From a virus, in the IMG/VR virus record IMGVR_UViG_3300036859_000729, positions 1 to 51,082 of that record: DNA of 51,082 nt. The stretch is one strand, 5' to 3'. The position numbers and the translations under genes were made by a program. Shown piece after piece: positions 14,678-31,705 of this stretch. The notes below the pieces were generated by a model. It searched no databases and was not told the origin of the DNA. It saw only the letters and a list, made by a program, of their open reading frames with translations. Positions within the stretch are counted from its first letter, which is position 1, and every line of letters begins with the position of its first letter.

Positions 14678-14689
14678 AGCACTCAGCCG

Positions 14690-15475: not shown

Positions 15476-15479
15476 AACG

Positions 15480-15743: not shown

Positions 15744-15747
15744 CTCT

Positions 15748-15780: not shown

Positions 15781-15807
15781 CAAGTTGCCCGAAAGAAAGG
15801 AAACCTC

Positions 15808-17215: not shown

Positions 17216-17234
17216 CCCGCCGCGCGACTCCAGC

Positions 17235-17258
17235 GACATGCCCCCTCCCGGGCATGTC
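17235..17258 (+). promoter_or_regulatory. Leader hairpin upstream of the 17283 gene
   Basis: Exact 9-bp arms GACATGCCC and GGGCATGTC enclose CCTCCC. The ribosome site AAGGAGAACAAT follows 12 bases downstream. This is the same arrangement as at the other early leader hairpins. Confidence 0.7.
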
Positions 17259-17282
17259 AGTGTGGTCGAGAAGGAGAACAAT

Positions 17283-18540: not shown

Positions 18541-18755
18541 GCAAGCAGATATACGTTCCCGCCGGTAGTGTGCACGCTTGGGTGGTGATCAGTCTGTGGG
18601 TTGTGGCCCTGCTCTGCGTGCTGGTGGGCGGTCCAATAGCGTGGTTCGTGTACGGCTCACAGGCGTTCGCTGGCTGGGCTTTCCTTGGATTGATGATCTC
18701 TGCGGCAGCAGGCCCAGTCACGATCGTCGATCCGGATGACGAGCGGCTCGGATAA
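18537..18755 (+). CDS. Small membrane protein, two spans, 72 aa
   Basis: ATGA overlap with the beta-helix gene. Hydrophobic stretches lie at about residues 13-38 (HAWVVISLWVVALLCVLVGG) and 44-62 (AGWAFLGLMISAAAGPVTI), with a short hydrophilic tail DPDDERLG. The layout is holin-like, but the location in the early arm is unusual for a holin. It may be a membrane accessory protein or exclusion factor. Base composition from here on is visibly lower in GC. Confidence 0.65.
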   Translation: MSKQIYVPAGSVHAWVVISLWVVALLCVLVGGPIAWFVYGSQAFAGWAFLGLMISAAAGPVTIVDPDDERLG

Positions 18756-18772
18756 CCAAACAAGGATCCCCC

Positions 18773-19345
18773 ATGACCACGCAGGAAGTGCCCGAGCTGC
18801 CGCCTTTGCCGGGCGGGTTCTTTCACGCAATCGGCATGCTCACAAAAGAGCAGTGCGATGCGCTCACCCACGTCCAAATGGTCGAAGTGCTGCGTAGGCG
18901 TGGCGATCACCTGAGCAATGCCGCGGCAGATTCAATCGCGTATCTCTCGGCGCAGGACGGGTTGATTGAGCGGGCCCAAGGCGAGGCTGAGAAGCTGTCG
19001 GCTGAGTTGGCAGAGGTCAAGCGCCCCCTCGATGAGCAGATGGCGCGCCTAAACGCGCGCGTGGTCGAACTGAACCAAGCCCTCACACAAGCAGTAGCAG
19101 ATGCGCAGCGGTGGTTTCCGATGCAGCACGGCCCATCAATCCCGTGGAAGCTGGCCGAGGCCATCTATGCCGGCTATTCCGCCCAGTACGGCACGCAGCA
19201 GTCGCTGGAGCGGCTAGCCGATCGGGGCGGGTTCTCATGGGGAGAGGTTGAAGTCCTCTACAAAGACCGGCACAACGACTACCAGATGCGTCGTGCGATG
19301 GACGCTGCTATCGAAGCAATGCGACAAGGAGCACAGCATAAGTGA
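18773..19345 (+). CDS. Unknown accessory protein, 190 aa, central coiled coil
   Basis: The start follows an AAGGA site. The protein (MTTQEVPELPPLPGGFFHAI) has a Pro/Glu-rich head, a central coiled coil around residues 60-105 (AQGEAEKLSAELAEVKRPL) and a C-terminal domain with WKLAEAIYAGYSAQYG and SWGEVEVLYKDRHNDYQMRR. It opens the lower-GC accessory cassette. No family is recognised. It overlaps the lipoprotein gene by 4 bases. Confidence 0.7.
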   Translation: MTTQEVPELPPLPGGFFHAIGMLTKEQCDALTHVQMVEVLRRRGDHLSNAAADSIAYLSAQDGLIERAQGEAEKLSAELAEVKRPLDEQMARLNARVVELNQALTQAVADAQRWFPMQHGPSIPWKLAEAIYAGYSAQYGTQQSLERLADRGGFSWGEVEVLYKDRHNDYQMRRAMDAAIEAMRQGAQHK

Positions 19346-19716
19346 GGGCATTCAAAGCGATTCTGCTTGCGGGCGCTTTAGCCGGGTGCAGCGATGCAGA
19401 CGTAGCGTCAAGCAACCTATCCAAGGCAGCAGACCAGTTCGAGATCACACGCCGCATCGTGTTCTACAACGGCATCACGGGCGATTACATGCTGACCATC
19501 ACTGGTCTCTGCTCGCTCGGGAACAACGACCAAGCCCGCAAGTTGTCGGTCACATGCAAGACCGGACCGAACGCCTTCAAGAAGCATTTCCTCGGCTTGT
19601 CGGACAACGTGACTTTCTTTGTCGAGCAGATCGAGCCAAGCGCCGCGAGTCCATACCAGTACCGCGTGGTGTTCAAGCCGTTGGCGATCATCCCCGATGT
19701 CGAGATTCGGAAATAA
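19342..19716 (+). CDS. Beta-sandwich-type lipoprotein, 124 aa
   Basis: The GTG overlapping the previous stop yields MRAFKAILLAGALAGCSDAD, a signal peptide ending in the lipobox LAGC. Cys 16 would be lipidated. The mature part is strand-rich (FEITRRIVFYNGITGDYMLT) with two further cysteines in GLCSLG and VTCKTG that could pair. This resembles small phage and prophage lipoproteins described as beta-sandwich lipoproteins. They are thought to sit in the envelope; a superinfection exclusion role is an inference. Confidence 0.8.
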   Translation: MRAFKAILLAGALAGCSDADVASSNLSKAADQFEITRRIVFYNGITGDYMLTITGLCSLGNNDQARKLSVTCKTGPNAFKKHFLGLSDNVTFFVEQIEPSAASPYQYRVVFKPLAIIPDVEIRK

Positions 19717-19718
19717 CC

Positions 19719-20321
19719 ATGGATAACCGCGATCCCGTCCGAGCCGAGGTTGGGCCAGAAGGAGACAACCAACCGTCATGCACACCTGAAGGGTTGGTGA
19801 GGCGACTTGGATCGCTGCATGCACTGCTGCGTGACCAATCGGATTGGGCGCCGTTTGTCAAACTGCAAGCGGTCAGAACAGTTGCGGACGCAATCGATGT
19901 GCTCAAAATGGCCGCTGCTCGGGCTGCTATCTCTACACCAGCCCCTTCTTTGGGAAATGAGACCGAGCGCGCTGGCGAAGGCGTGCAGCGGCCACTTCCA
20001 CCACCAGACGGCTCTGGACACAGCAGTCGATGGACATACGGCAATCCAGGATCGAAGCACTTGCCGCCAACTGCTGAAGCTCTCTACACCAGCGCTTCGC
20101 TTCTACGGTACGTCGGGCACCTCCAGGCGAAGATCGACGCCTTGATGCTTGAATACTGCCCGTCAGAAATGACGCAAAGCCAGATTGCAGAGTGGCAAGC
20201 GCACCAGCGCCCGTGTAGCGCTGAGACGCAGCAAGCCGTAGCCGAAGCGCTCCGCTCAGATGAACAAGAAACAAGGGCCGGTCCTCCAAAGGAGCCGCCG
20301 CCAATTAAGGAGACGCGATGA
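19719..20321 (+). CDS. Unknown accessory protein, 200 aa
   Basis: The ATG lies 2 bases after the lipoprotein stop. The product has a helical first third (VRRLGSLHALLRDQSDWAPF), a Pro/Gly-rich middle (ERAGEGVQRPLPPPDGSGHS) and a helical, acidic C-terminus. The middle phrase recurs in the 21799 protein as ERAGEAVQRPVPAPF, so the two genes share a linker of common origin. No enzyme motif is visible. Confidence 0.65.
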   Translation: MDNRDPVRAEVGPEGDNQPSCTPEGLVRRLGSLHALLRDQSDWAPFVKLQAVRTVADAIDVLKMAAARAAISTPAPSLGNETERAGEGVQRPLPPPDGSGHSSRWTYGNPGSKHLPPTAEALYTSASLLRYVGHLQAKIDALMLEYCPSEMTQSQIAEWQAHQRPCSAETQQAVAEALRSDEQETRAGPPKEPPPIKETR

Positions 20322-20644
20322 GCCGCCACTTCAACAAACTCACCCCGGCCGAAGCCGAACTGCTGGCACTACTTGCTGAGGAATGCGGCGAGGTCGTGCA
20401 GGTCATTGGCAAGATCCTACGGCACGGCCTGGAGAGTACGCACCCGAACGCGGCGCCAATCGAGACGAACCGCTACCTCTTGCAAAAGGAGTGCGGCGAC
20501 CTGTGGGCTGCGATGGATCTGTTGGCGGCAAACGGCGTGATCGACAGCAAGGCGGTGGCACAACACAGCACGTACAAGCTGCGCCGCGTGTTCCAGTACC
20601 TGCACCACAACAAGCAGCTTCAGTCTGCCGAGGAGACGCGATGA
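20318..20644 (+). CDS. MazG-like nucleotide pyrophosphohydrolase, 108 aa
   Basis: The all-alpha NTP pyrophosphatase signature is present: EECGE at residues 21-25 and ECGD at 58-61, giving the EExxE then ExxD pattern that holds magnesium. Such enzymes hydrolyse nucleoside triphosphates to monophosphates. In phages they may alter nucleotide pools or host alarmone levels. ATGA overlaps link it to both neighbours. A second, divergent MazG-like gene lies at 29874. Confidence 0.8.
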   Translation: MSRHFNKLTPAEAELLALLAEECGEVVQVIGKILRHGLESTHPNAAPIETNRYLLQKECGDLWAAMDLLAANGVIDSKAVAQHSTYKLRRVFQYLHHNKQLQSAEETR

Positions 20645-21342
20645 GCGCAGAACAAAGAGAAGCACACACGCACGCAACCGCGACGATCACGCTGCCTCGC
20701 CCGGCCGAAGGGTGGCGATACATGCTGACGCGAGATGCACCCCTCCCAGGGGTGCAGGCCGATCCCACAGAGGGCAATTGGATCGCGGCTGATGACTACT
20801 ACCGGAACGTCAAGGAACTGGACGAAGCCCTAAACGGCCCAGGCGGCGCCACACGTCCGCTGTTGATCGATGTCCTGTCTCAGGTGCAGGCGATCGTGAG
20901 GAAAACGGGCAAGCCGCTTCTCGCGCATACAGCAGAGCCTCCCATCAATGCAGCAGCGCAGGAAGGGGACGAAAGTCCAGAACGCTGTTTCCGTTCTCCT
21001 GCCAGCCTTCCTGCTGCTGCTGCACCCAATGAGCTTGTAGCGCCTCTGCCGTCTGCCGACATTGCCATGCTTCGCTCAATGTTCCCTGTGACCGCGGCTG
21101 GCAAGCTGAAGTTGCATCTAGACCGTGAGGCAATCGATAACATGCACGCCCTCATTGATCGCCTTGAGCTGGCAGTGCGCGCATCGCCTGTGCCCAAGTT
21201 GGATGTGCAGCCGTGCGCTCTGTGCCATACGAACGAGACCGGCTACGTCTGCACTGGCGCTTGCAATGAATGGTCGGAGCCATCGCCGCAGAAGGCCGGC
21301 GGTACTGTGCACTGCCCTATCTGCGGGAAGGTCTGGAAATGA
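20641..21342 (+). CDS. Accessory protein with C-terminal zinc ribbon, 233 aa
   Basis: The start follows GGAGACGCG, identical to the junction at the previous gene. The N-terminal part (WRYMLTRDAPLPGVQADPTE) and a helical middle are followed by a Cys-rich C-terminus: CALCH, CTGAC and CPICGKVWK. These form one or two zinc ribbons. It probably binds nucleic acid or protein; no specific family is recognised. Confidence 0.65.
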   Translation: MSAEQREAHTHATATITLPRPAEGWRYMLTRDAPLPGVQADPTEGNWIAADDYYRNVKELDEALNGPGGATRPLLIDVLSQVQAIVRKTGKPLLAHTAEPPINAAAQEGDESPERCFRSPASLPAAAAPNELVAPLPSADIAMLRSMFPVTAAGKLKLHLDREAIDNMHALIDRLELAVRASPVPKLDVQPCALCHTNETGYVCTGACNEWSEPSPQKAGGTVHCPICGKVWK

Positions 21343-21806
21343 CGCTCAAGCCAGACTCGCGCGCCGTGTTGCCTTCGCCGCAGTCGCTGAAGCCGTGCGC
21401 CCACTGCGGATCACCGGCCTACATGCTCAAGGGCGATGTTGACTTCAATGTCAAGTGCACGAACGGCGACTGTCAGATGGCCTCACCGCGCACGATCATG
21501 AGTCGGATGGCTGCTGAAATCTGGAACGCGCGCGCACCTCAGGCTGTGGATGCGCCCGAAGAAATTCACTCGTGCAGCTACTTCTGCGAACGGCCGGCTT
21601 GCATCAAAGCGCAGAGGGACGAACTGCGGGATAGGGCTGTGGATGCACCTGTGGCCTTGCGTGAAATCACGGACGAAGAGCGCCAGTTCCTGTCCTACAA
21701 CCCGAACACGGATGACCTAGTTGTATGGATTCAGGACTACGCAAGCGAGGCGGTACGGTCTGCGCTATCCCAAGAGCGGCCCAATGAAGGGGGAGCAGAT
21801 GTCTGA
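21339..21806 (+). CDS. Lar-like zinc-ribbon protein (restriction alleviation family), 155 aa
   Basis: Residues 18-60 read KPCAHCGSPAYMLKG, then KCTNGDC and MAAEIWNARA. This is the layout of Lar-like proteins: CPxCG opening, second Cys pair and a closing A-x-WNxR helix. Rac prophage Lar modulates host type I restriction and modification, but many phage members are untested. A second Cys-rich stretch (CSYFCERPACIKAQ) follows, then an acidic helix. Overlaps: 4 bases with the previous gene, 8 with the next. Confidence 0.65.
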   Translation: MTLKPDSRAVLPSPQSLKPCAHCGSPAYMLKGDVDFNVKCTNGDCQMASPRTIMSRMAAEIWNARAPQAVDAPEEIHSCSYFCERPACIKAQRDELRDRAVDAPVALREITDEERQFLSYNPNTDDLVVWIQDYASEAVRSALSQERPNEGGADV

Positions 21807-22254
21807 ATGCGCCAAATGCGAGGAACTGAAGGCGAAGGCAACTGAGGTCATTAGGCAGTGTCACCTTGCCGGCTTGAATGGCCACACCAACGCCTGCAAC
21901 AAGGACCCGCGAGGGTGCTGGAATGTTCGGTGCCAACTCGGGAAGCAATGCATTCAGGAAGATTTGACCGAGCGCGCCGGCGAAGCGGTTCAGCGGCCTG
22001 TGCCTGCGCCTTTTTCGTTCGATGTTTGGACTGATGCGGTCTGGGCGGCGATGCGCGATCTAGCCCAAGAAGACACGGCTGTGAAGATGCTGAACGCTCA
22101 CACCGTGCGCGAATTCTGCAAGGCGTCATGGGTTGCGCTGTCGAAGGCCGGCGGTCTGCCATCCGATCCGAGGGCTTCGGATCATTTGACCGAGCAACAG
22201 CGGCAGGCAATCACGGACGCAAACGCTGGCCGCATGGACATCGATGATGATTAG
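21799..22254 (+). CDS. Cys-rich accessory protein, 151 aa
   Basis: The ATG following AAGGGGGAGCAG is selected. The first 50 residues contain several cysteines (MSECAKCEELKAKATEVIRQ, CNKDPRGCWNVRC, QLGKQC), suggesting metal binding or disulfides. The repeated linker ERAGEAVQRPVPAPF follows, then a helical C-terminal domain. No family is assigned. Confidence 0.65.
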   Translation: MSECAKCEELKAKATEVIRQCHLAGLNGHTNACNKDPRGCWNVRCQLGKQCIQEDLTERAGEAVQRPVPAPFSFDVWTDAVWAAMRDLAQEDTAVKMLNAHTVREFCKASWVALSKAGGLPSDPRASDHLTEQQRQAITDANAGRMDIDDD

Positions 22255-22651
22255 CCCTCTGTGCAAGTGCCAACCACCGAGTTGGGACGATCCGCACGAC
22301 TACCTGTGCAGTTGGTGCCAAGAGCAGGCCGACCGCGAGCACACCGGTGCCGACCAGATCGAGGCGCAGCAGGACATCGAAGCCGATAGCGCTCGGTCAG
22401 ATAACAAAGGTCAAAAATCTGTTCTACCCGAAGCGCCGAAGGCCCCTGAGTGGATTCCAGTGTCAGAGCGGTTGCCTGAGCCAGGCCAGCATGTCTTGGC
22501 GTTCTGGCCTGGGATCGAGGGCGATGACGATGTGTTGATGGTTGACTGGCGCAGCAAGGTCACAAGCGAGTGGGTCGAGACAGAGCCAACGCATTGGATG
22601 CATTTACCCGCTGCACCAATTACAGAGGAAGCGCCAAAGGAGACAGAGTGA
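22244..22651 (+). CDS. DUF551-domain protein, 135 aa
   Basis: The C-terminal half matches DUF551: EWIPVSERLPEPGQHVLAFW, then a WRSKVTSEW strand and THWMHLPAAP. The N-terminus has CKCQPPSW and CSWCQEQ cysteine pairs. DUF551 proteins are common phage and prophage cargo of unknown function. It overlaps the previous gene by 11 bases. The tail EEAPKETE sits on the junction repeat that also ends the next gene. Confidence 0.75.
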   Translation: MMISPLCKCQPPSWDDPHDYLCSWCQEQADREHTGADQIEAQQDIEADSARSDNKGQKSVLPEAPKAPEWIPVSERLPEPGQHVLAFWPGIEGDDDVLMVDWRSKVTSEWVETEPTHWMHLPAAPITEEAPKETE

Positions 22652-22896
22652 ACCTCGCAGAACGAATTCGCAAGGCAGCGTTAGGGCCAACGCCGAGAGA
22701 TTCGCAATGGCTGCATGGGTGGGTTGGCATTCACACTGCAGAGCACAAGGCGCTGATTGAACACATCGGATTCAAAACCCCGGGGGTAACGGCATTCACT
22801 AATCGCGGCATCAACGAAAACGTGCGCCGAATGTTCCTGCTGTTCGTCGCTGAAGCAATCGGGGAATCAGGCGAAGCGCCGAAGGAGAGAGAGTGA
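22648..22896 (+). CDS. Small accessory protein, 82 aa
   Basis: The GTG overlaps the previous stop behind AAAGGAGACAGA. The product (MNLAERIRKAALGPTPRDSQ) is mostly helical with a central HGWVGIHTAEHKALIEHIGF segment. It ends SGEAPKERE, nearly the same tail as its neighbour, encoded over the repeated junction sequence. No family is recognised. Confidence 0.65.
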   Translation: MNLAERIRKAALGPTPRDSQWLHGWVGIHTAEHKALIEHIGFKTPGVTAFTNRGINENVRRMFLLFVAEAIGESGEAPKERE

Positions 22897-23162
22897 CCGG
22901 CTGTCCAATTTACTGCGCTTACTGTCAGCGCCCAATCGGTGGGTCGGCTGTGTGGTGCGGCTCGTTTCCGTACCACGAGGAATGCACGCGCGGGCCTGCT
23001 TATCAGCCGCGCTACTACACCCCGGTCGGAGCGGGCGACGGCAACACGTTCATCCCGCGACAACTTACCGAAGCCGAAGTGCGCCGCATCGTTCGCGAAG
23101 AACTTGCACGCATGGAATCAGGCGAGAGCGCACCTACTGCCCAACCAACGGAGAAATCATGA
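22893..23162 (+). CDS. Small zinc-finger accessory protein, 89 aa
   Basis: GTG start overlapping the previous stop. The N-terminus reads CPIYCAYCQRPIGGSAVWCG, followed by YHEEC, a Cys/His set typical of a treble-clef zinc finger. The C-terminal half is a helix (LTEAEVRRIVREELARMESG). It ends on the GAGAGCGCACCTACTG repeat. It may be an adaptor binding a host factor. Confidence 0.65.
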   Translation: MTGCPIYCAYCQRPIGGSAVWCGSFPYHEECTRGPAYQPRYYTPVGAGDGNTFIPRQLTEAEVRRIVREELARMESGESAPTAQPTEKS

Positions 23163-23368
23163 GCGTCCGAATCAAGGCAGAGCAAGTCGTCAGGATCATC
23201 GAGCAAGGCTTGTCAGGTGGCTGGCAGTACGAAGCCAGCTACCGACACACGCTGCAGTCGATGATCCACGATCTTGCTGGTGCAAACCTGCCACCCGAGT
23301 GCAGCCTATCAGCGGCCACGAACTACCTGCTCATGTTGTGGCTTGCTCGCGGCAGCTACGCCGAGTGA
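23159..23368 (+). CDS. Small helical accessory protein, 69 aa
   Basis: ATGA overlap. The product (MSVRIKAEQVVRIIEQGLSG) is compact and helical, with GWQYEASYRHTLQSMIHDLA in the middle and LMLWLARGSYAE at the end. No motif is visible. The following 33 bases before the next gene contain a copy of the GAGAGCGCACCTACTG repeat, showing that a gene or gene end was lost or recombined there. Confidence 0.6.
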   Translation: MSVRIKAEQVVRIIEQGLSGGWQYEASYRHTLQSMIHDLAGANLPPECSLSAATNYLLMLWLARGSYAE

Positions 23369-23401
23369 TGGGCGAGAGCGCACCTACTGGTAGCCAGACC
23401 A

Positions 23402-23605
23402 ATGGTTGAACGCATTGACCCGGATCGCATTGAAGTGCTCGGCGGCGAGCCCGGCGACAAGGAGCGCTTTCTGCGCAGCGACTACCTGATCCGCAGCGGC
23501 ATGTGCCCCAACGGCCACGGGTTGATGACTCTTGGCGGCTGGGGGCAGGAGTGCCCGACGTGCGGCTTTACGTGCAACACGCTACCTGAGTTGGACGCGC
23601 AATGA
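23402..23605 (+). CDS. Small zinc-ribbon protein, 67 aa
   Basis: The start MVERIDPDRIEVLGGEPGDK is followed by FLRSDYLIRSGMCPNGHG, with CPNGHG and CPTCGF pairs that make a zinc ribbon. It overlaps the next gene by 4 bases. The function is unknown; small phage zinc ribbons often bind host transcription or nuclease complexes. Confidence 0.65.
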   Translation: MVERIDPDRIEVLGGEPGDKERFLRSDYLIRSGMCPNGHGLMTLGGWGQECPTCGFTCNTLPELDAQ

Positions 23606-23838
23606 ACCACATCACCGTTGTCGCACACGGGGCGCCCGGCTCATTCGTCAGGCGCGTGCAGGAGAACCCAAGCATTGCCGTTGATCTGCTGGACGCATTG
23701 ATGCACGTCCACGCATACGACAGCGCAAGTCTGGGCGCTATCGGCGAAGCGCTTGTGCGCCGTGCCATCCAGCAGGCAACCGAAGGCAAACCGTACTACG
23801 GGCCCGAATCGGGCGCACCTACTGGGGACAAGGGCTGA
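23602..23838 (+). CDS. Small accessory protein, 78 aa
   Basis: ATGA overlap. MNHITVVAHGAPGSFVRRVQ is followed by helices (NPSIAVDLLDALMHVHAYDS, LGAIGEALVRRAIQQA) and a Gly/Pro-rich end. It closes the accessory cassette: a promoter and higher-GC sequence begin directly after it. The role is unknown. Confidence 0.6.
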   Translation: MNHITVVAHGAPGSFVRRVQENPSIAVDLLDALMHVHAYDSASLGAIGEALVRRAIQQATEGKPYYGPESGAPTGDKG

Positions 23839-23873
23839 CGCGTCAAACCCACCCGGGCGGGATCACATCTTAC

Positions 23874-23902
23874 TTGACGCACACCCCCACCCATGCCACA
23901 AT
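23874..23902 (+). promoter_or_regulatory. Early promoter P3
   Basis: TTGACG, 17 bases, then CACAAT. The -35 region lies in CACATCTTACTTG (23864-23876), identical to promoter P2. It drives the 210-residue gene at 23974. Confidence 0.7.
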
Positions 23903-23920
23903 TCGATTCGCGGCTCCATC

Positions 23921-23948
23921 GCGGGCATGCCGCAACCCAAATGCCCGC
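23921..23948 (+). promoter_or_regulatory. Leader hairpin upstream of the 23974 gene
   Basis: Exact 8-bp arms GCGGGCAT and ATGCCCGC enclose a 12-base loop. It lies within the 5' leader made from promoter P3, upstream of the AAGGAAAAGCAAC ribosome site. Confidence 0.65.
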
Positions 23949-23973
23949 ATCAACTGACTGAAGGAAAAGCAAC

Positions 23974-24606
23974 ATGGCAAGCGAAGATAACACCGCAACG
24001 GCCCCTGCGAAGGCCAAGACGGAGTACGAGAAGGTCGTGATGGCGGATGGCCGGGAGGTCGAGTTCCCGGGCAAACGCCAGATCTTGAAAACCGTGACGA
24101 TCGATGAGGCCGCTGCGACGGTCGCCGTCCGCTTCGACTTCCGCAACGGCAAGGTGCTGAGCCTCGGCTCCACCGAACTGGGCGCAGTCACGCAGCTGCA
24201 ATCGCTGGGGCACGGCCTGGCGCAGAAGTGCGGCGACGAGGCCGCGGGAGAGAAGAAGATCGACGACATCGTCGCCGCGGTCGAAGACATGATGGGTCGC
24301 CTCCGCAAGGGCGAGTGGAACGTGCCTCGCCAGCCGGGCGACTCGTTCTCCGGCACCAGCGTGGTCATCCGCGCCGTGGCCGAGGTGACGGGCAAGTCGG
24401 CCGAGGACGTGAAGGCGTTCCTGCAGGGCAAGCTGGACAAGGCGAAGGCCGAGGGCAAGGCGCTCTCGCGTCAGGAACTCTACGCCTCGTTCCGCAAGCC
24501 GGGTACGCGGACGGCCGAGGTCATTCGCCGGATCGAGGAAGAGGACGCGGCCGGCAAGACCACCAAGGTCTCGGCAGACGATCTCCTGGGCGAACTCACG
24601 GCGTAG
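23974..24606 (+). CDS. Early phage protein, 210 aa
   Basis: It has its own promoter, leader hairpin and a downstream terminator, so it is a single-gene unit. The N-terminus is Ala/Lys/Glu rich (MASEDNTATAPAKAKTEYEK), then a beta part with VRFDFRNGKVLSLGSTELGA. A helical region (IDDIVAAVEDMMGRLRKGEW) comes before the acidic C-terminal tail SADDLLGELTA. The FDFRNGKV string is familiar from abundant phage proteins of unknown function. Its independent control suggests high early expression. Its tail resembles those of the 13299 and 25803 proteins. Confidence 0.8.
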   Translation: MASEDNTATAPAKAKTEYEKVVMADGREVEFPGKRQILKTVTIDEAAATVAVRFDFRNGKVLSLGSTELGAVTQLQSLGHGLAQKCGDEAAGEKKIDDIVAAVEDMMGRLRKGEWNVPRQPGDSFSGTSVVIRAVAEVTGKSAEDVKAFLQGKLDKAKAEGKALSRQELYASFRKPGTRTAEVIRRIEEEDAAGKTTKVSADDLLGELTA

Positions 24607-24864
24607 GCTCGGAGTCTGCGGAAAGGGGAGGGCCCGAGGCGCCCCTTTTCGGAGGCTCTCGCAGCTCAGTGCTAGCAACCACAGGCTGATGCCGCCGGTT
24701 GCAGGCGACTGCGGAGTCCTCAAGTCAGCCGGGCTTTGGTTCGCGAGGCCTTTCTCCCGGCTGGCGGTCGCCGCCCCGAGGGTCGCTCCCTCGGTGGCCG
24801 GTGGCTTGGGCGGGGGTGGTTACAAAGAAAGGTAAGGATTGCCGCAAATTCGGAGACCTCTTAG
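24607..24864 (+). other. Non-coding stretch with terminator and structured sequence
   Basis: No convincing gene is seen. It begins with a terminator hairpin, continues through a GC-rich, potentially folded section with a perfect 7-bp hairpin (CCGAGGG and CCCTCGG, 24776-24794), and ends at the next promoter. A small RNA or a remnant gene is possible. Confidence 0.5.
24622..24649 (+). terminator. Rho-independent terminator candidate after the 23974 gene
   Basis: Arms AAAGGGG (24622-24628) and CCCCTTT (24642-24648) pair around a GC-rich loop able to extend the stem, followed by TTTTC. It lies 16 bases after the stop codon. Confidence 0.65.
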
Positions 24865-24893
24865 TTGACACCGCGGTAATTCACGTGTAATAT
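24865..24893 (+). promoter_or_regulatory. Early/middle promoter P4, consensus sigma70 type
   Basis: TTGACA (24865-24870), 17 bases, TAATAT (24888-24893). Its upstream part CTCTTAG resembles ATCTTAC at P2 and P3. It should drive the replication module beginning at 24938. The -10 box lies inside palindrome copy C. Confidence 0.85.
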
Positions 24894-24911
24894 CGGCGGA
24901 TATTAGACGTG
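24882..24911 (+). promoter_or_regulatory. Dispersed 30-bp palindrome, copy C (operator over P4)
   Basis: CACGTG and GACGTG ends are 24 bp apart, with a perfect inner inverted repeat TAATATC-GGCG-GATATTA. The site covers the -10 box and the expected transcript start, so binding would block initiation. This is the clearest functional clue to the palindrome family. Confidence 0.8.
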
Positions 24912-24937
24912 CATTTCCCCCAAGAAAGGGCCTCGCC

Positions 24938-25174
24938 ATGCCACTCTCCCCCCTCCGTAAGGAGGAACTCCGCCTTCAGAATGAAGAGGCGCGAGAGGCG
25001 ATAGAGAAGGTGCTCCAACTCCTCCGCGCGTCGGGGGTTGCGGAGATAAGCCTCGCCATCACCCTCGCGGGAGTTGCGGCGGCCTACACGAAGGCTCTCC
25101 CTCCTTCCCAACGCATCCCCGTCGCGAGGGCAACGCTCCTTTCCTTCTACAACGCCGCGCGAGGAGACATCTGA
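24938..25174 (+). CDS. Small protein heading the replication operon, 78 aa
   Basis: The start follows CAAGAAAGGGCCTCGCC, another copy of the extended leader. The product (MPLSPLRKEELRLQNEEARE) is helical and charged at first, then Ala/Leu rich (ISLAITLAGVAAAYTKALPP). No motif. As the first gene behind the regulated promoter it may have a regulatory or replication accessory role; this is not shown by the sequence. Confidence 0.65.
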   Translation: MPLSPLRKEELRLQNEEAREAIEKVLQLLRASGVAEISLAITLAGVAAAYTKALPPSQRIPVARATLLSFYNAARGDI

Positions 25175-25467
25175 TGCCTCGCCGCCCCGCTATCACCCCG
25201 AGCGAGAAGCTCACCCTCATGCTCCCCCAGGACGTGCGGGTCCGGCTCGATCTCTTCCTCCACTCCGATCTCCAAGGCCGCGTCCCGGTCGGAGCGTACC
25301 AGCGCTTCTTCACCGCACGCATCCTCGAGTTCTTCGGCGACAAACCCCTCGACCTCGCGCCCTTCCTCGGCTCGCCTCCCGGCGAGTTCGTCGTCCGCGC
25401 TCCGATCGACACGATCGCGAGGCTGCAGGACTATCTCCTCCGCTCCCGCGTCGAGGCCGGCGAATGA
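25174..25467 (+). CDS. Conserved phage protein, 97 aa
   Basis: TGATG overlap with the previous gene. The sequence SEKLTLMLPQDVRVRLDLFL, then GRVPVGAYQRFFTARILEFF, resembles a family often found in proteobacterial phage early regions. Its opening L-x-LPxDVRxRLDL has a ribbon-helix-helix-like look. A role as DNA-binding regulator is possible but unproven. Confidence 0.7.
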   Translation: MPRRPAITPSEKLTLMLPQDVRVRLDLFLHSDLQGRVPVGAYQRFFTARILEFFGDKPLDLAPFLGSPPGEFVVRAPIDTIARLQDYLLRSRVEAGE

Positions 25468-25661
25468 AGTGCAAGTGCGGGGGCACGACCCGCAACCTCG
25501 CGACGCGGGCCACGGCTTACTACATCTCACGTCGACGTGAGTGCAAGCGCTGCCGCATCCGTTTCTCCACCCGTGAGGTGCGAACGGAGGAACTCCTCCT
25601 CCTCCGCGCGGCGATGGAGCAGGTCCGCAAACTTACCACCATGAAAGGACTTGGCAGATGA
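25464..25661 (+). CDS. NrdR/Ogr-like zinc-ribbon protein, 65 aa
   Basis: Paired cysteines CKCGG and RRRECKRCRIRFSTRE make a zinc ribbon very similar to the N-terminal domain of NrdR (RRRECxxCxxRFxTxE). There is no ATP-cone domain. Phage proteins of this type, such as Ogr/Delta, activate late genes by contacting RNA polymerase. That is one possible role here, in a phage with no other obvious late activator. Confidence 0.65.
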   Translation: MKCKCGGTTRNLATRATAYYISRRRECKRCRIRFSTREVRTEELLLLRAAMEQVRKLTTMKGLGR

Positions 25662-25816
25662 TTTGCTTCGGGCTTTCCCTTCTCTCCTTTGCCCTCTCCC
25701 TCCTCTCCCTCTACTCCGCAATTCGCGCGTGGAGGATGGCGACGGTGGCGAAGCGCCTCTCGCTCGAGGCCCTCGAAACCCTGAAATATTGGAGACCCAC
25801 CCATGCAGATGAGTAG
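25658..25816 (+). CDS. Small membrane protein, 52 aa
   Basis: The start overlaps the previous stop (ATGA). MICFGLSLLSFALSLLSLYS is a single hydrophobic span, followed by a basic amphipathic helix (IRAWRMATVAKRLSLEALET). The end overlaps the start of the next gene by 14 bases. The tight packing supports a genuine gene despite its size. Confidence 0.6.
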   Translation: MICFGLSLLSFALSLLSLYSAIRAWRMATVAKRLSLEALETLKYWRPTHADE

Positions 25817-26021
25817 TGAAATTCAGGCGAAGGTTGCCATGTGGCGACGGAAGTCGATCGAGGGAACCCTCTCCCCCGAAGAGATGCGCGAGGCGGTCGA
25901 TCTCCTTCGGGCGGGGAGGACCTCCGCCGCGATGACGGCCGCCGCCGCGAAGAAGAGAACGAAGGCCGCCAAGGCGATTGTCTCGGCGGATGACTTGCTT
26001 GACGAACTGGGAGGCCTCTAA
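25803..26021 (+). CDS. Conserved small phage protein with SADDLL tail, 72 aa
   Basis: GGAGA before the ATG marks the start; a second ATG two codons later is possible. The sequence (WRRKSIEGTLSPEEMREAVD, LLRAGRTSAA, KKRTKAAK) ends SADDLLDELGGL. This small protein type is widespread next to phage recombination genes. The C-terminal motif matches that of the 23974 protein. A peptide that binds a replication or transcription partner is a reasonable guess. Confidence 0.7.
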   Translation: MQMSSEIQAKVAMWRRKSIEGTLSPEEMREAVDLLRAGRTSAAMTAAAAKKRTKAAKAIVSADDLLDELGGL

Positions 26022-26022
26022 C

Positions 26023-26268
26023 ATGATGCAATCGATTTGCGGGAACTGCAAGTGGTACAACCACACCGAGGAGATGCCGGATGGCTTCGGCCACTGCCAC
26101 CTCAACCCCCCGCAACTTTCCCACGTCCTCGTCCCCGTGCAGCAGCAGAACATCGCGATGGCACAGCAGAGCCGCGGCCTCACCCTCCAGGACTTCACCG
26201 GCTGGCCTGTCGTGAAGTTCCGTGACTTCTGCGGCCAGTATGGACCCAAAATCACCCTGGTGCAATAG
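26023..26268 (+). CDS. Cys-rich phage protein, 81 aa
   Basis: The start MMQSICGNCKWYN contains a CGNCKWY pair, followed by HCHLNPP and a late FCGQY. Together these suggest a metal site. The CxNCxxY, C-LNPP and WP-x-V strings are familiar from short phage proteins of unknown function. It lies one base after the previous stop and two before the nuclease gene. Confidence 0.7.
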   Translation: MMQSICGNCKWYNHTEEMPDGFGHCHLNPPQLSHVLVPVQQQNIAMAQQSRGLTLQDFTGWPVVKFRDFCGQYGPKITLVQ

Positions 26269-26270
26269 CC

Positions 26271-27188
26271 ATGAACCAAGACATCGTACCTTTCCCCGAG
26301 GTGGTTGACTCCACCATGATTGCGGAATTCCGCGCTTGCCCGTGGAAGTTCTTCACCACCTACCTCCAACACTGGAAGACGCGGAACCTCTCCGTCCATC
26401 TCCACGCAGGGGCGGCATTCGCCCGAGGCCTGGAGGTGGGGAGGAAGGCGTTCTGGGACCAGGGGTTCCCGGAGCAAGAGGCCATCGCCCTCGGGATGGG
26501 GGCACTCCTCACCGCCTACGGTGACTTCGAATGCCCGGAGGACTCTCCCAAGAGCGCCGACCGGATGGCCGCGGCCTACGAATACTCCATGTCGATGTAC
26601 CCCATGTCGCAGGAGAGGATGCCCCCGATCCGCCTCGGCGACAAGCATGCCATCGAGTTCTCGTTCGTCGAGCCCCTCGACTTCCTCCACCCCACGACCG
26701 GCCAGCCCGTCCTCTACTCCGGCCGCTACGACCAGATTGTGGAGTACGCGGGCCAGCCCTTCGGGTTCGATGACAAGACAACCGGGTCGATGGGCGCAGC
26801 GTGGCCGAAGCAGTGGGACCTCCGCTCCCAATTCACCGCCTATTGTTGGGGAGCCAGACGCGCCAAGATCCCCGTCGCCGGCTTCATCGTTCGGGGGACG
26901 GGCATCCTCAAGACCAAGTTCGACACGCAGCAAGCCATCACCTATCGCGCTGAGTGGCAAATCGAACAGTGGATGGAAACCCTCCTCCAAGATCTCCGCG
27001 ACATGCAGACGTATTGGGAAAGAGGGTTCTGGAAACGAAACCTCTCCGAGTCCTGCAACGCGTATGGCGGGTGCGGGTATAAGAAGGTTTGCCAGAGCCA
27101 AGACCCAGGGCCGTGGCTCGCCGTGGACTTCGCGCGGAGGGTTTGGAACCCGATCCTCAGGGAGGAGAGGGAATGGGTGGAGGTGTGA
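26271..27188 (+). CDS. Cas4/RecB-like PD-(D/E)XK exonuclease, 305 aa
   Basis: Motifs run in the order of this nuclease superfamily: an N-terminal FRACPWKFF, the core GRYDQIVEYAGQPFGFDDKT with its Asp and D-x-K residues, and QFTAYCWGARR corresponding to the Q-x-x-x-Y helix. The terminal cysteines CNAYGGCGYKKVC may bind an iron-sulfur cluster together with the Cys in FRACPW. It should act as a 5'-3' or end-resecting DNA nuclease in recombination or replication, partnered with the Sak4-like ATPase nearby. Confidence 0.85.
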   Translation: MNQDIVPFPEVVDSTMIAEFRACPWKFFTTYLQHWKTRNLSVHLHAGAAFARGLEVGRKAFWDQGFPEQEAIALGMGALLTAYGDFECPEDSPKSADRMAAAYEYSMSMYPMSQERMPPIRLGDKHAIEFSFVEPLDFLHPTTGQPVLYSGRYDQIVEYAGQPFGFDDKTTGSMGAAWPKQWDLRSQFTAYCWGARRAKIPVAGFIVRGTGILKTKFDTQQAITYRAEWQIEQWMETLLQDLRDMQTYWERGFWKRNLSESCNAYGGCGYKKVCQSQDPGPWLAVDFARRVWNPILREEREWVEV

Positions 27189-27631
27189 GCCGGGCATTCG
27201 AGGATGCGTTCAATCTGCTGTGTGATCGGCAGGTAGGCAACGGAATGAGTCGCAAGGTGTTCACAAGTGTCTTGCTGCCGGAGTGCGTAATTAAAGTCGA
27301 AGACGACGCACACCGATTCCAGAATGTTGTGGAATGGGAAACTTGGAATCGCATCAAGTACACGCCGGCGAGCCGCTGGTTTGCTGAATGCAAGTGGATC
27401 AGCCCCAACGGCATCGTGCTGATCATGGAACGCACTTTGCCGCCGCGTGCCGAGGACTTTCCGAAACGAATGCCAGTGTTCCTGAGTGACTTCAAGCGCA
27501 CGAACTATGGTATGGCGAAGTCCAAGGGGAAGAAACAGTGGCTCGTGTGCCACGATTACGGCACCCACCTCCTGTGGCAAGAAGGCTGCCACACCAAGCG
27601 AACCAAAAACGCAGACTGGTGGGATGAGTGA
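27173..27631 (+). CDS. Miniature protein-kinase-like protein, 152 aa
   Basis: The start follows GGAGGAGAGGGA. The order of motifs recalls a protein kinase core: VIKVE (Lys 41), VVEWETW (Glu 54 or 56), a hinge-like GIVLIMERT (80-88), DFKRTNYG (Asp 106, Lys 108, Asn 111) and HDYG (Asp 128 to Gly 130). This is DLKxxN then DFG spacing in a protein about half normal length. The activation segment and the C-lobe after DYG are nearly absent. It may phosphorylate a host or phage protein, or bind nucleotide without catalysis. Codon use is lower in GC than its neighbours. Confidence 0.55.
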   Translation: MGGGVSRAFEDAFNLLCDRQVGNGMSRKVFTSVLLPECVIKVEDDAHRFQNVVEWETWNRIKYTPASRWFAECKWISPNGIVLIMERTLPPRAEDFPKRMPVFLSDFKRTNYGMAKSKGKKQWLVCHDYGTHLLWQEGCHTKRTKNADWWDE

Positions 27632-28011
27632 TGGCTCGCTGGCCCGTCACCTACTTCCTCTTCGACCGCGTCTTCGACACCGGGGAGATTGAATCCGACT
27701 CTCCCCCGGATTCCCTCGCCTATTTCTGCGCCTCGTGCGGGCGGGTCTGGGGCCGGGCCTACATCGAAGGCACGACGTGGCACCAACGCACGACGCCCTG
27801 CGAGCGGCACTGGAAAACCGGGGTAGCTGACTGGGCGACGGTGCCCGGCTCCTTCCTCCCCTTCTCCATCGGGTGGTGGAGTGTGGAAGTCTCGACCATG
27901 TTCTGGGCAGCCACACTCGACTACCTTCCTCCCAAAGTTCTTAGCCGCGAGCTTCGGCTCGCATTACTTGAGGTAGAACGAAGTGAGCACACTGAAATTA
28001 GCGGGACCTAA
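27631..28011 (+). CDS. Zinc-ribbon-containing protein, 126 aa
   Basis: TGATG overlap with the kinase-like gene; a GTG one codon earlier is possible. The protein contains YFCASCGRVWGRAYIEG and a CERHW pair, consistent with one zinc site. The C-terminal third is hydrophobic and Trp-rich (FSIGWWSVEVSTMFWAATLD). It overlaps the Sak4-like gene by 29 bases. No family is recognised. Confidence 0.65.
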   Translation: MARWPVTYFLFDRVFDTGEIESDSPPDSLAYFCASCGRVWGRAYIEGTTWHQRTTPCERHWKTGVADWATVPGSFLPFSIGWWSVEVSTMFWAATLDYLPPKVLSRELRLALLEVERSEHTEISGT

Positions 28012-28822
28012 GGTCCTTCTCCTCGGCGCCGCCGGGACGGGGAAGTCCTATTCCATCGGAACCCTCGTCGACTGGGCGGAGAAGAATGGATTCCACTGCC
28101 ACGTCATCTACACGGAGAACTCGCTGGAGACTCTCCTCGGTTACTGGCTCGACCGGGGGAAAGAGGTGCCGAAGTCCCTCGCTTGGCACGTAAACATCGT
28201 CCCTGCCCTCCCTCTCGACTCCCTCATCAAGGGGGCGAAGGACTCCGGCATGATGTCGTACAAGCAGCTCACCGAGATGACGGACCCCGACCGGATGAAG
28301 AACAATCCGTGGGAGAAGTTCCTCCGCCTCCTCACCGACGTGCCAGATGACAGGACGGGGGCGAAGTTCGGGAGTATCGACACGTGGGACAACCGCAAGA
28401 TCCTCGTCATCGACTCCCTTACCGAGGCGGCGAATGCGGCGTTCAGGATGCAGACGGGGAACAAACCTACCGCCTCGCCGCCTGAGTACCAGGTTGCCCA
28501 GAACAACTTCTACAACTGGCTCCGCTACATGGCGCAGAGTCTCAGGTGTACCTTCGTCATGACGGGCCACCCGCAGCGGCAGATGAACGAACTCACCGGT
28601 GCGCAGAACGTCACGACCTCGGCGATCGGGAAGGCGTTGGGGGAGGATATCCCCCGCCAGTTCTCCGAGGTGGTGTGGTGCCGCCGGGAGGGTGTCTCGT
28701 GGGTTTGGGACAACATGACTTCGGGCATCGACACGAAGAAGAGGTATCTCCCTCTCTCCGCGAAGATTCTCCCCGACTTCGCTCAGATCATGGACCCGTG
28801 GATGAAGAGGGCGGTGGTATGA
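27983..28822 (+). CDS. RecA-fold recombination ATPase, Sak4-like, 279 aa
   Basis: The GTG start overlaps the preceding gene. Walker A is GAAGTGKS (residues 15-22), and Walker B is KILVIDSLTEA around residue 140. A TFVMTGHPQRQ strand follows. These features and size match phage Sak4-type single-strand annealing or recombinase ATPases that work with SSB. Its neighbours, a nuclease upstream and an SSB-tailed protein and DUF669-like protein downstream, are the usual partners in such recombination modules. Confidence 0.85.
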   Translation: MSTLKLAGPKVLLLGAAGTGKSYSIGTLVDWAEKNGFHCHVIYTENSLETLLGYWLDRGKEVPKSLAWHVNIVPALPLDSLIKGAKDSGMMSYKQLTEMTDPDRMKNNPWEKFLRLLTDVPDDRTGAKFGSIDTWDNRKILVIDSLTEAANAAFRMQTGNKPTASPPEYQVAQNNFYNWLRYMAQSLRCTFVMTGHPQRQMNELTGAQNVTTSAIGKALGEDIPRQFSEVVWCRREGVSWVWDNMTSGIDTKKRYLPLSAKILPDFAQIMDPWMKRAVV

Positions 28823-29079
28823 GCAAGATCAAACTCGGCGACGCGATGGCGTACCTCGGGCCGGGGAACTATGTGAAGGTCGGCGCCCTCTTCGCCGAGT
28901 CGGATAACCCCGACCGAATGACACTGAAGCTCGACGCCGTCCCTCTCCCCAACGTGAAGTGGGACGGGTGGATCAACATTTGGACGGAAAAGCCGAAGCC
29001 GGCGGCTCGTGTGGAATCGGCTCCAAAAGTACCGATTGACCCTTCTGACACCCCTCTCGACGACGACACCCCCTTTTGA
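28819..29079 (+). CDS. Small SSB-like protein with acidic tip, 86 aa
   Basis: ATGA overlap with the ATPase gene. The body (KLGDAMAYLGPGNYVKVGAL, WDGWINIW) is short and strand-rich. It ends PLDDDTPF, very close to the DDDIPF tip by which bacterial SSB recruits its partners. It could be a minimal single-stranded DNA-binding protein or a decoy that attracts host SSB-binding enzymes. The fold is not confirmed. Confidence 0.65.
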   Translation: MSKIKLGDAMAYLGPGNYVKVGALFAESDNPDRMTLKLDAVPLPNVKWDGWINIWTEKPKPAARVESAPKVPIDPSDTPLDDDTPF

Positions 29080-29084
29080 CTGAA

Positions 29085-29109
29085 CCTAGGCCGCAGGCAG
29101 AGGCCCAGG
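29085..29109 (+). promoter_or_regulatory. Imperfect leader hairpin before the 29147 gene
   Basis: CCTAGGCC and GGCCCAGG pair with one mismatch across a 9-base loop. It lies between the SSB-tailed gene and the DUF669-like gene, upstream of an AAGGAAG ribosome site. Confidence 0.45.
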
Positions 29110-29146
29110 TCCTCATCGACCAACCTGCCAATTCAAGGAAGACACT

Positions 29147-29605
29147 ATGCAATTCGATCCCATGCAGTACATGGACATGGAAACCACGGAGGAGGCGAAG
29201 AAGCGCCCGCCGCTCCCTGTCCGCGACTATCCCGCCATCATCAGTGACCTCGTCGTCAAGCCCTGGGCGAATGACGAGGGGAAGAGCGGCATGCAGGCGC
29301 TCGTGACCCTGGACGTCGAGGTCCCCCTCGAAGTGCAGGAAGCCATCGGCTACAAGCCGAAGGACAACACGATGCGCTTCACCGATCGTCCCTTCATCGA
29401 CATCAATGAGGGCGGCGCGATCGACTGGTCGCCGGGCGCCAACCGCCGCCTCCGCCAGTACCGCGTCGCCGCGGACATGAACAAGGCAGGCGAGTCCTTT
29501 TCCCTCCGCCGCCTCGTCGGCCGTCCCGTCCTCGTCAAGATCACCCACGAGATGTATCAGGGCGAGACGCAAGAGCGGATCGGCGGCGTGGCACCGCGGG
29601 GCTGA
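29147..29605 (+). CDS. DUF669-like recombination protein, 152 aa
   Basis: The protein starts MQFDPMQYMDMETTEEAKKR and shows the pattern of DUF669 or SSB-like phage proteins: an early LPVRDYPAIISDLVVKPW, then ALVTLDVEVPLEVQ strands and a late VGRPVLVKITHEMYQGE. These lie beside Sak4-type ATPases and probably bind single-stranded DNA through an OB-like fold. The assignment rests on context and general pattern. A hairpin follows its stop. Confidence 0.7.
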   Translation: MQFDPMQYMDMETTEEAKKRPPLPVRDYPAIISDLVVKPWANDEGKSGMQALVTLDVEVPLEVQEAIGYKPKDNTMRFTDRPFIDINEGGAIDWSPGANRRLRQYRVAADMNKAGESFSLRRLVGRPVLVKITHEMYQGETQERIGGVAPRG

Positions 29606-29620
29606 GACAACGAAACCTGG

Positions 29621-29646
29621 GGCACCTTCGCGGTGCCTCTCTTTCT
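29621..29646 (+). terminator. Terminator-like hairpin
   Basis: GGCACC and GGTGCC (29621-29637) close a TTCGC loop, followed by TCTCTTTCT. The U content is modest, so partial termination or processing is possible. The ribosome site of the next gene overlaps the tail. Confidence 0.55.
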
Positions 29647-29656
29647 GGAGAACCGA

Positions 29657-29872
29657 ATGACAACCTACATCATCGTGACGGAGGACGGCGACGTCTTCAA
29701 ATCCTCGGACGAGGACCAACTGAATAAGTGGTTGGAAAGTAATTCCCTCGTCATCAACCCGGCGACGCTGCAGTGTGTCGAGGGCGACGCGGCAGATATG
29801 GACGGGCCCTGGGAAGACATCGACGACGCGCCGAGCATCGAGGATCCGGCCGACGAGGAAGAGGGGAACTGA
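29657..29872 (+). CDS. Small acidic protein, 71 aa
   Basis: The start follows GGAGAACCGA. After strand-rich MTTYIIVTEDGDVFKSSDED, the protein becomes very acidic (DAADMDGPWEDIDDAPSIED and DEEEGN). The charge suggests a DNA mimic or an inhibitor of a nucleic-acid-binding host protein, but this is only inferred from composition. Confidence 0.6.
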   Translation: MTTYIIVTEDGDVFKSSDEDQLNKWLESNSLVINPATLQCVEGDAADMDGPWEDIDDAPSIEDPADEEEGN

Positions 29873-29873
29873 G

Positions 29874-30374
29874 ATGCGGCCTCCCTATGCAGAATTCGTC
29901 CAACAGCGTTTCACCAAGCGGGCGGAAGGTGGGGAGGCCCTTCTCCACTCCGCGATCGGGATGGCAGGAGAACTCGTCGAACTCCTCGATGCGAAGTCAC
30001 GAGAGAACGTGATTGAGGAACTCGGGGACTTCGAGTTCTATTACGAAGCGGCGCGGGCGATCCTCGGGGTTGACCCTGCCATTCAGCACCATGGCGGGGT
30101 CACCACCAATCTGGTCTCTACCCTCAACCAGGCCCTGGTCGCCGCCAACGACTTCCTGGACCAGGCAAAGAAGGTTTGGGTTTACGGGAAGGAGGTTGAT
30201 GCGCAGATTTTCCGATTCTGCCTCATTCAAACCCGCCTCGCCGTGAATGAGGTTGAGTGTCTCCTCGCCGTCACCTCCACCCAGGCGCAAGACGCCAACA
30301 TGGAAAAGCTGTTCAAGCGCTACCCCACCGGGTATACAGACGCCCTCGCCCTGGCGCGGAAGGACAAGGAATGA
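29874..30374 (+). CDS. MazG-like pyrophosphohydrolase, 166 aa
   Basis: AIGMAGELVELLDA (GE at 32-33, E 36) and IEELGDFEFYYEA (E 49, D 52) give the MazG metal-binding pattern. The later LFKRYPTGYTDALALARKD tail is typical of longer phage MazG-like enzymes. It would hydrolyse nucleoside triphosphates, affecting the DNA precursor pool or alarmone balance. It lies next to replication genes and overlaps the ParB-methyltransferase by 4 bases. This and the 20318 gene are separate MazG types. Confidence 0.8.
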   Translation: MRPPYAEFVQQRFTKRAEGGEALLHSAIGMAGELVELLDAKSRENVIEELGDFEFYYEAARAILGVDPAIQHHGGVTTNLVSTLNQALVAANDFLDQAKKVWVYGKEVDAQIFRFCLIQTRLAVNEVECLLAVTSTQAQDANMEKLFKRYPTGYTDALALARKDKE

Positions 30375-31705
30375 GAATTCAGAACTTCGCCGACATCAAG
30401 GCGATCAAAATTCCTCCAAATCGCCAGCGAACCGAGTTCGATGAGGGAGAGCTGAGAGAGCTGAGCGAGTCGATTCAAGCCCGCGGCCTCCTCCACGCAA
30501 TCGTGCTACGGGAGGACGCCGGCAACCTCTTCCTCGTGTCGGGAGAGAGACGGCTCCGCGCAATCGAGGATCTCTGGGCGTTGGGGGGCCAGTTCAAGTA
30601 CGATGGCTTCTACGTACCCGAAGGCACCGTCCCCTTCAACAACCTCCGCGAACTCTCGCCTCTCGAAGCGATGGAGGCGGAGTTCGAGGAGAACGTTCGC
30701 CGGACGGACCTCTCGTGGCAGGACCGCGCGAAGGCGACGAAGGCCCTCGAGACCTTGCGGGGGGAGCAAGCGAAGGCAAAAGGTCTTCCTCCTCCCTCCC
30801 TCGCCTCAATCGCGAAGGAGGTTCGCGGCGCGACCTCCGGCAGTCCCATCGGCGACACGAAGATGGAACTCATCCTCGCCGGCCACCTCAACGACCCGGA
30901 CATCGCGAAGGCGCCGACGCTCCGCGAAGCGTTTAAGGTGGCGCAGCGGAAGGAGGTCGCCCGTCAGAACGCCGAACTCGGGGAACTCGTTGGCCGGGCC
31001 TTCACCTCCGCGGTCCACAAGATCTACAACGAGGATGTAACCGAGTGGGTGAAGGAGCAAGCGGATGAGCAGTTTGACGTGATTCTCACCGACCCCCCTT
31101 ACGGGATGGGGGCGGATGAGTTTGGGGATTCCGGAGGGATGGCGGCGGGCGGGCATGGCTACGGCGACGATCCGGTCACTTTCTATGAACTCTTCTACAC
31201 GGCAGCAGCTGACGGCCACGGCATGCTCGAACACTTCTTCCGCCTCGCCAAGCCGGAGGCCCACCTCTACCTCTTCTGCGACGTCGACAAGTTCGGGTTT
31301 CTGAAGGGCCAAGCGGAGGAGGCGGGGTGGAAGGTCTTCCGCACGCCGCTGATCTGGCACAAGCCCACCGCCGCTCGGGCGCCGTGGCCCGAGCAAGGAC
31401 CGCAGAGGAAATACGAGACGATCCTCTACGCCGTGAAGGGTGGCATGAAGGTGAACAAGATGGCAGGGGATGTCCTTACCTACATGCCGGACGAGAACCT
31501 GGGAAATGCGGCGCAGAAACCCGTTTCCCTCTTCACCGACCTCCTCTCCCGCTCCGTCCGTCCAGGGGGACGGGTGTTGGATGCGTTCTGCGGCTCGGGG
31601 CCGATCTTCCCGGCTGCGCACCTCCTCAAGGTGGCTGCGGTGGGGGTGGAAAAGGATGTGGCGAGCTATGGGATTGCACTGAAGAGGTTGGAGGGGTTAA
31701 AATGA
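30371..31705 (+). CDS. ParB-like domain fused to a DNA methyltransferase, 444 aa
   Basis: The N-terminal part (residues 1 to about 100) is a ParB/Srx-like domain with SGERRLRAIED. It is followed by a ParB-type helical region including LSWQDRAKATKALETLRGEQ and a helix-turn-helix-like SLASIAKEV. The methyltransferase half has motif IV DPPY (241-244) before motif I DAFCGSG (about 403-409), the beta-class order for N6-adenine or N4-cytosine methylation. It likely marks phage DNA against host nucleases, and its ParB part could direct it to a specific site such as the dispersed palindromes. The target sequence is unknown. Confidence 0.85.
   Translation: MRIQNFADIKAIKIPPNRQRTEFDEGELRELSESIQARGLLHAIVLREDAGNLFLVSGERRLRAIEDLWALGGQFKYDGFYVPEGTVPFNNLRELSPLEAMEAEFEENVRRTDLSWQDRAKATKALETLRGEQAKAKGLPPPSLASIAKEVRGATSGSPIGDTKMELILAGHLNDPDIAKAPTLREAFKVAQRKEVARQNAELGELVGRAFTSAVHKIYNEDVTEWVKEQADEQFDVILTDPPYGMGADEFGDSGGMAAGGHGYGDDPVTFYELFYTAAADGHGMLEHFFRLAKPEAHLYLFCDVDKFGFLKGQAEEAGWKVFRTPLIWHKPTAARAPWPEQGPQRKYETILYAVKGGMKVNKMAGDVLTYMPDENLGNAAQKPVSLFTDLLSRSVRPGGRVLDAFCGSGPIFPAAHLLKVAAVGVEKDVASYGIALKRLEGLK

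Follow-up and report, generated by a model that had tools for sequence, protein, structure and literature searches.

The window analyzed here, a virus record of 51,082 bases, carries a 179-bp direct repeat at its ends (positions 1 to 179 and 50904 to 51082, 99% identical), and the genome is therefore probably complete and either circular or terminally redundant. Its replication operon stands behind a sigma-70-type promoter (Table 1). As the original prediction had proposed, the −10 box of this promoter lies inside a palindrome (site C), the inner repeat TAATATC-GGCG-GATATTA (24888 to 24905) is perfect, and the promoter heads a run of plus-strand genes that includes the replication genes. Site C lies 27 bases before g45, the first of these genes. 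The exonuclease of the operon is of the PD-(D/E)XK type, and two overlapping open reading frames (32534 to 33568 and 33565 to 34944) make up DNA polymerase A, which most relatives have as a single frame. The products of g44 (23974 to 24606) and g49 (25803 to 26021) have almost identical C-terminal peptides, VSADDLL(G/D)EL, perhaps a common tail for interactions. g44 also forms one protein cluster with g21 (13299 to 13868); these paralogues are present in all complete relatives and adjoin sites C and A, respectively.

Table 1. Coordinates of the features discussed, in positions of the window
Feature	Positions	Strand	Description
Site A	12916–12945		Between the divergent genes g20 (−) and g21 (+)
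Single extra core CACGTG (GAATTCTCACGTGGGAAATG)	12971–12976		Lone half-site, at about 31 bp from site A's second core
Site B	16837–16866		Within nucleotidyltransferase-like gene g29 (16170–17030)
Sigma-70-type promoter TTGACA-N17-TAATAT	24865–24893	+	−35 TTGACA, 24865–24870; spacer, 17 nt; −10 TAATAT, 24888–24893
Site C, CACGTGTAATATC-GGCG-GATATTAGACGTG	24882–24911		30-bp palindrome, 12/13 arm pairs
Replication operon behind C	24938–36149	+	Exonuclease, Sak4-like, MazG-like, ParB-methyltransferase, PolA (two ORFs), primase
g45	24938–25174	+	First gene behind C; 78 aa; stop overlaps start of g46
g46	25174–25467	+	Second gene behind C; 97-aa predicted ribbon-helix-helix (RHH) protein; proposed binder of sites A to E; beta-strand triad Lys12-Thr14-Met16
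g59	30371–31705	+	ParB N-terminal domain fused to N6/N4 DNA methyltransferase; rival candidate binder
Site D	36143–36172		Overlaps primase stop codon (36149); equivalent at primase end in relatives with sites
Site E	48441–48470		Directly upstream of predicted start of Hc3-like head-closure gene (46839–48440, −)

Palindrome C is the best palindrome with a 4-nt gap in the window and by itself only mildly unusual, as 12 of 13 arm pairs were reached in 3 of 40 dinucleotide shuffles; the evidence for it is therefore the family of sites to which it belongs and not the palindrome alone. Its two cores, CACGTG (24882 to 24887) and GACGTG (24906 to 24911), have centers 24 bp apart and A/T-rich DNA on both sides. 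The window has two promoter-like sites in which TTGACA is perfect, versus 0.4 in shuffles, and one of the two overlaps a palindrome. The sequence WTCTTASTTGMM around the −35 hexamer is common to promoters at 14119, 23867, and 24858 (that of site C), which places promoter C in a set of promoters of this phage, perhaps a host- or phage-specific class. CTCTTAG lies upstream in the −35 part of promoter C and recurs in two other promoters of the window.

The dispersed palindrome copies that had been predicted do exist. With a matrix built from all five and run over the whole window, sites A to E scored 30.2 to 34.6 bits versus 13.3 bits for the next best place, and leave-one-out matrices built from the other four sites recovered each of them at 24.8 to 29.4 bits versus at most 15.1 bits elsewhere. 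C is the only one of the five that overlaps a recognizable sigma-70 promoter.

Relatives were gathered with an alignment of four primases, which led to 80 IMG/VR loci, most of them at 50 to 64% identity; a nucleotide search of phage records with the replication region gave no match, a single-protein search with PolA gave no relatives, and exact-pattern scans of viral contigs gave matches in 0 and 1 contig. Many relatives have a different palindrome right behind the primase, at the position of site D in the window. Seeds taken from these palindromes found more copies in their own genomes, the best matches in other genomes being mostly lower; since the seeds were picked by palindromicity, the palindromic character of the sites is partly by construction, while their match to a protein residue, described below, is not. 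With refined matrices, 17 genomes (window included) had two to eight sites each, with accepted sites at 23 to 43 bits versus 5 to 17 bits for the next best places; no sites were found in L038, L067, or L080. An AGTACT family in MW202489, obtained by mechanical counting of dyad words, was rejected, as it looks coding; such counting is dominated by codon bias.

Each half-site contains a 6- to 8-bp palindromic core, with core centers 24 to 25 bp apart, and across 160 half-sites A or T occupies positions ±7 and ±8 of each core, on both sides, in 81 to 92% of cases versus 44% expected. The cores include CACGTG, TACGTA, GACGTC, CGCGCG, GGCGCC, CCCGGG, ACCGGT, TGAACA/TGTTCA, and CGnnCG. The core letters differ between phages while the architecture and the places are kept.

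The core word follows a single residue of gp46, the product of g46. An alignment of the family shows a strand of the form x-L-x-L-x-L-P in which the outward residues are variable, and the middle one, residue 14, sorts with the site core. With the core register fixed at 24 to 25 bp, Thr accompanies ACGT in 8 of 25 phages, Asn accompanies GCGC in 7, His accompanies GNNC in 6, and Glu accompanies CCGG in 3; no phage contradicts the scheme, and one further Asn phage has G at ±2 and a degenerate center. Automatic choice of the register misplaced some CGCG and TGAACA cores, and when core pairs were scanned for without bias, most genomes yielded no clear class. None of 50,000 permutations matched residue and core as well as the 25 phages do. 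Among 2,600 alignment columns of 11 families, g46 column 14 ranked first (z = 13.5; next, 8.9), although the shuffles ignore relatedness and so inflate all z values, which the tree and the sister pairs offset only partly. The polymerase/primase tree requires at least eight changes of core class, and sisters differ in class and residue together, as in L044 (KTN, ACGT) versus G010 (SHT, GNNC) and in G016 (KNS, GCGC) versus G017/L060 (HHT/RHT, GNNC), so that the match does not go back to one inherited difference. Three phages outside the table also fit, namely, G013 (Glu, CCCGGG), G015 (Asn, CGCGCG), and L054 (His, mostly G-NN-C), the sites of G015 having been noticed earlier and those of G013 and L054 not. 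This covariation between residue 14 and the base at ±2 of the core, seen in 25 plus 3 phages, suggests indirectly that alternate residues of the gp46 strand read operator bases.

The predicted structure of gp46 is consistent with such a role. Its AlphaFold2 model (pLDDT, 92.5) has an extended segment at residues 11 to 17 followed by helices at 19 to 29 and 41 to 55, which is the RHH order, and in VIA-align the NikR RHH domain was the only listed match to residues 10 to 56 (Z = 3.8); Foldseek alone gave nothing significant. The window's gp46 matched no Pfam or PHROG family, and Pfam RHH_5 was matched weakly by 1 of 24 members of the gp46 family (E = 0.09). Many gp46 relatives consist of the RHH part only. 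Taken together, the model and, more weakly, the sequence identify gp46 as a predicted RHH protein.

Few protein families are conserved throughout, or almost throughout, the complete genomes. The small g65 (36157 to 36375) encodes GLGYCC, an HTH-like LIATRLGVT stretch, and cysteines, and homologues directly follow the primase in about 22 related loci; g65 was rejected as the site binder, as it was not detected in most phages with sites. The HTH-like g20 (12204 to 12818, minus strand), which lies beside site A, was likewise rejected, having no significant correlation with the sites. Even relatives whose capsid, portal, and terminase genes are unrelated retain g20, which is therefore perhaps not a small terminase; a promoter, TTGACA-N17-TACAAT (12862 to 12890, minus strand), faces g20 about 26 bp from site A, with no overlap.

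A more serious competitor is g59, and the sites would then be parS-like loading sites from which its product spreads to methylate or silence phage DNA in the manner of KorB. The gene is present in 17 of 17 genomes, its product has conserved ParB-like motifs and an AlphaFold2 model (pLDDT, 89), and CACGTG and CCCGGG are also the centers of chromosomal parS and Noc sites. KorB silences over long range from dispersed operators (PMC11790492), and phage ParB-methyltransferase fusions are known (PMC12704722). Whole-protein distance also correlates best with site distance for g59 (partial r = 0.40, versus 0.23 for g46), a ranking that is not decisive. Against this, the fit of g46 column 14 to the core classes has no equal in any column of g59, which is why g59 was rejected as the binder, and the methyltransferase domain of g59 correlates with the sites as well as its N-terminal part does, which looks like linkage. 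The spacing from core to A/T arm in parS differs from that in the phage sites. In ParB/parS systems parS is bound by ParB with ParA as partner, and ParA (PF13614) was found in none of 20 records, which sets the phage sites apart from this class. We therefore regard loading of g59 as improbable.

On this evidence, sites A to E are most likely docking points of a self-regulating phage repressor, and we put at about 0.78 the probability that site C serves as operator for gp46, an RHH repressor that would regulate its own expression and whose binding we infer from the sequences. In each palindromic 6-mer, a gp46 dimer would insert its two-stranded ribbon into the major groove, with Thr14 reading the A at ±2 as Thr25 of MetJ does in the met box, and two dimers 24 bp apart would fill one site, aided by the A/T-rich DNA flanking each core. 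Because the inner part of C contains the −10 box, bound gp46 would cover it and exclude RNA polymerase, stopping initiation of the replication operon, and because that operon includes g46, accumulating gp46 would shut down its own operon. Promoters with at least 10 of 12 matches occurred on 7 of 51 site strands that have a downstream gene, compared with 0.2% of random positions, and sites are overlapped by a promoter that is perfect or nearly so in G008, G009, G005 (two sites), G010, G014, and G017. The nearest site lies 0.3 to 1.1 kb upstream of g46 on the same strand in most genomes in which g46 was detected (in G009, the exception, 3.7 kb), which fits autoregulation. It counts against a gp46 repressor that RHH dimers usually occupy adjoining sites, which makes a spacing of 24 bp long for them, and that most sites overlap no recognizable promoter.

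The original prediction had further suggested that the dispersed sites bind a repressor of replication genes. For site C, the claim gains from the promoter overlaps in relatives and from the covariation with gp46, whereas its extension to all sites does not hold up as well. Only C lies on a promoter, D lies at the primase stop, and B lies in a coding sequence. In the relatives, sites recur between the divergent genes g20 and g21, between g44 and the replication operon, behind the primase, and between the capsid gene and g7. In five genomes (G003, G006, G007, G019, and G027, two of them near-identical), g71 or its counterpart, a large late gene, contains a site about 1.2 kb from its start. The large virion gene that holds sites in relatives is 4 kb; the window's own g71 has no site. 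Such placements at D and B and, in relatives, between the capsid gene and g7 or in late genes fit transcription roadblocks or DNA organization better than repression of replication genes. Away from promoters, gp46 would most likely block elongation or bridge distant sites, and the sites other than C probably block transcription or organize DNA. Structural modules vary between some of the genomes while the replication genes are constant, suggesting that it is the replication and regulatory part with which the sites are inherited.

Bidirectional terminators or other RNA hairpins would also suit the position of the D-type sites, which come after the primase stop and in many cases separate convergent genes. 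This explanation is very improbable, because the arms pair poorly at E (6/13) and A (9/13), some sites lie on promoters, a terminator scan of 12100 to 32000 listed none at A, B, or C, and the sites of one genome share their sequence, which hairpins would not require.

The distribution of the sites bears on whether repression is their main function. Most of them (67 of 83) are mostly intergenic, noncoding sequence making up 9.5% of the DNA, and the gaps between sites are more even than under random intergenic placement (coefficient of variation, 0.42 versus 0.95 ± 0.08; 0 of 2,000 placements as even), so that even spacing as a chance by-product of intergenic location was rejected. It is conceivable, therefore, that gp46 binds the sites mainly to bridge or organize the phage genome and that its overlap with the promoter at C serves autoregulation only; the sites inside coding DNA, including those in the g71 position, point the same way. 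Several sites, however, have a promoter close to consensus that is directed toward a gene, and one site per transcription unit could also yield even spacing; we consider a mainly architectural role doubtful but the strongest competitor to the gp46 operator reading.

A search of 20 records, which may be incomplete, found no tyrosine integrase (PF00589), serine recombinase/resolvase (PF00239), or ParA, and this argues, though not decisively, against a prophage function; that the system times events in the lytic cycle, or excludes related phages that enter the cell, is thus likelier than maintenance of lysogeny. The same result bears on the possibility that a lysogeny repressor uses the sites as stoperators, which would define immunity groups as in cluster A mycobacteriophages. 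Dispersed sites in conserved places, with a phage-specific sequence and with some on promoters and most not, are what cluster A has as well (PMC6550527). Besides this negative search, relatives in bacterial assemblies lie on contigs of 6.5 to 51 kb and not in long chromosomal ones, and cluster A repressors bind as monomers to asymmetric 13- to 14-bp sites (PMC6550527) set in the orientation of transcription, whereas the sites here are palindromic and the candidate protein is of the RHH type. Stoperators of this kind are therefore unlikely.

Returning to gp46, we speculate, with somewhat less than even confidence, that in an apparently virulent phage lineage the genome is marked, at more or less regular distances, with sites for the phage's own RHH protein, that each lineage uses a private word set largely by one residue, and that the array acts genome-wide, as roadblock, bridge, or mark of self and nonself, and not only at promoters. 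The four core classes that go with Thr, Asn, Glu, and His would document, in natural replicates, how DNA specificity is set by a strand residue of an RHH protein, and gp46 would represent an unrecognized repressor family in phages that yielded no lysogeny genes. This raises the question of why a lytic phage keeps evenly spaced copies of a repressor site, some of them within genes.

Among RHH repressors, MetJ of Escherichia coli is alike in its strand (KKITVSIP in translation, against KLTLMLP in gp46; the comparison covers the strand only, and gp46 is not classed as a MetJ), in which Lys23 and Thr25 contact the met box, in the central ACGT of its palindromic element, in having more than one element per operator, and in autoregulation. 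Four tandem met-box-like 8-mers adjoin E. coli metJ. Met boxes are adjacent 8-mers, whereas the phage cores are 24 bp apart with A/T-rich flanks, and MetJ acts at promoters with a corepressor. NikR, whose RHH domain is the best structural match to gp46 residues 10 to 56, is an RHH tetramer that binds two separated half-sites about two helical turns apart, much like the phage sites; it differs in having a C-terminal metal-binding domain, which the many RHH-only gp46 relatives lack.

A search of open-access papers showed no description of the gp46 family or its sites, and the closest described systems are the cluster A stoperators (PMC6550527), the KorB operators (PMC11790492), and AmrZ (PMC3325190). 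Cluster A stoperators are likewise dispersed, phage-specific repressor sites with some on promoters and many not, but those phages are temperate and have 20 to 30 asymmetric sites for a monomeric repressor (PMC6550527), compared with 2 to 8 palindromic sites, an RHH protein, and no lysogeny genes found here. The operators of KorB in plasmid RK2 are also dispersed and silence at long range (PMC11790492); KorB is a ParB-family CTP clamp, whereas gp46 is a predicted RHH protein encoded in the operon that it would regulate. AmrZ differs in its 5-bp linker and adjacent half-sites and is not a dispersed phage system, but it is an RHH autorepressor that binds as a dimer of dimers, with an A/T-rich, narrowed minor groove between its half-sites (PMC3325190), which resembles the arrangement proposed for gp46.
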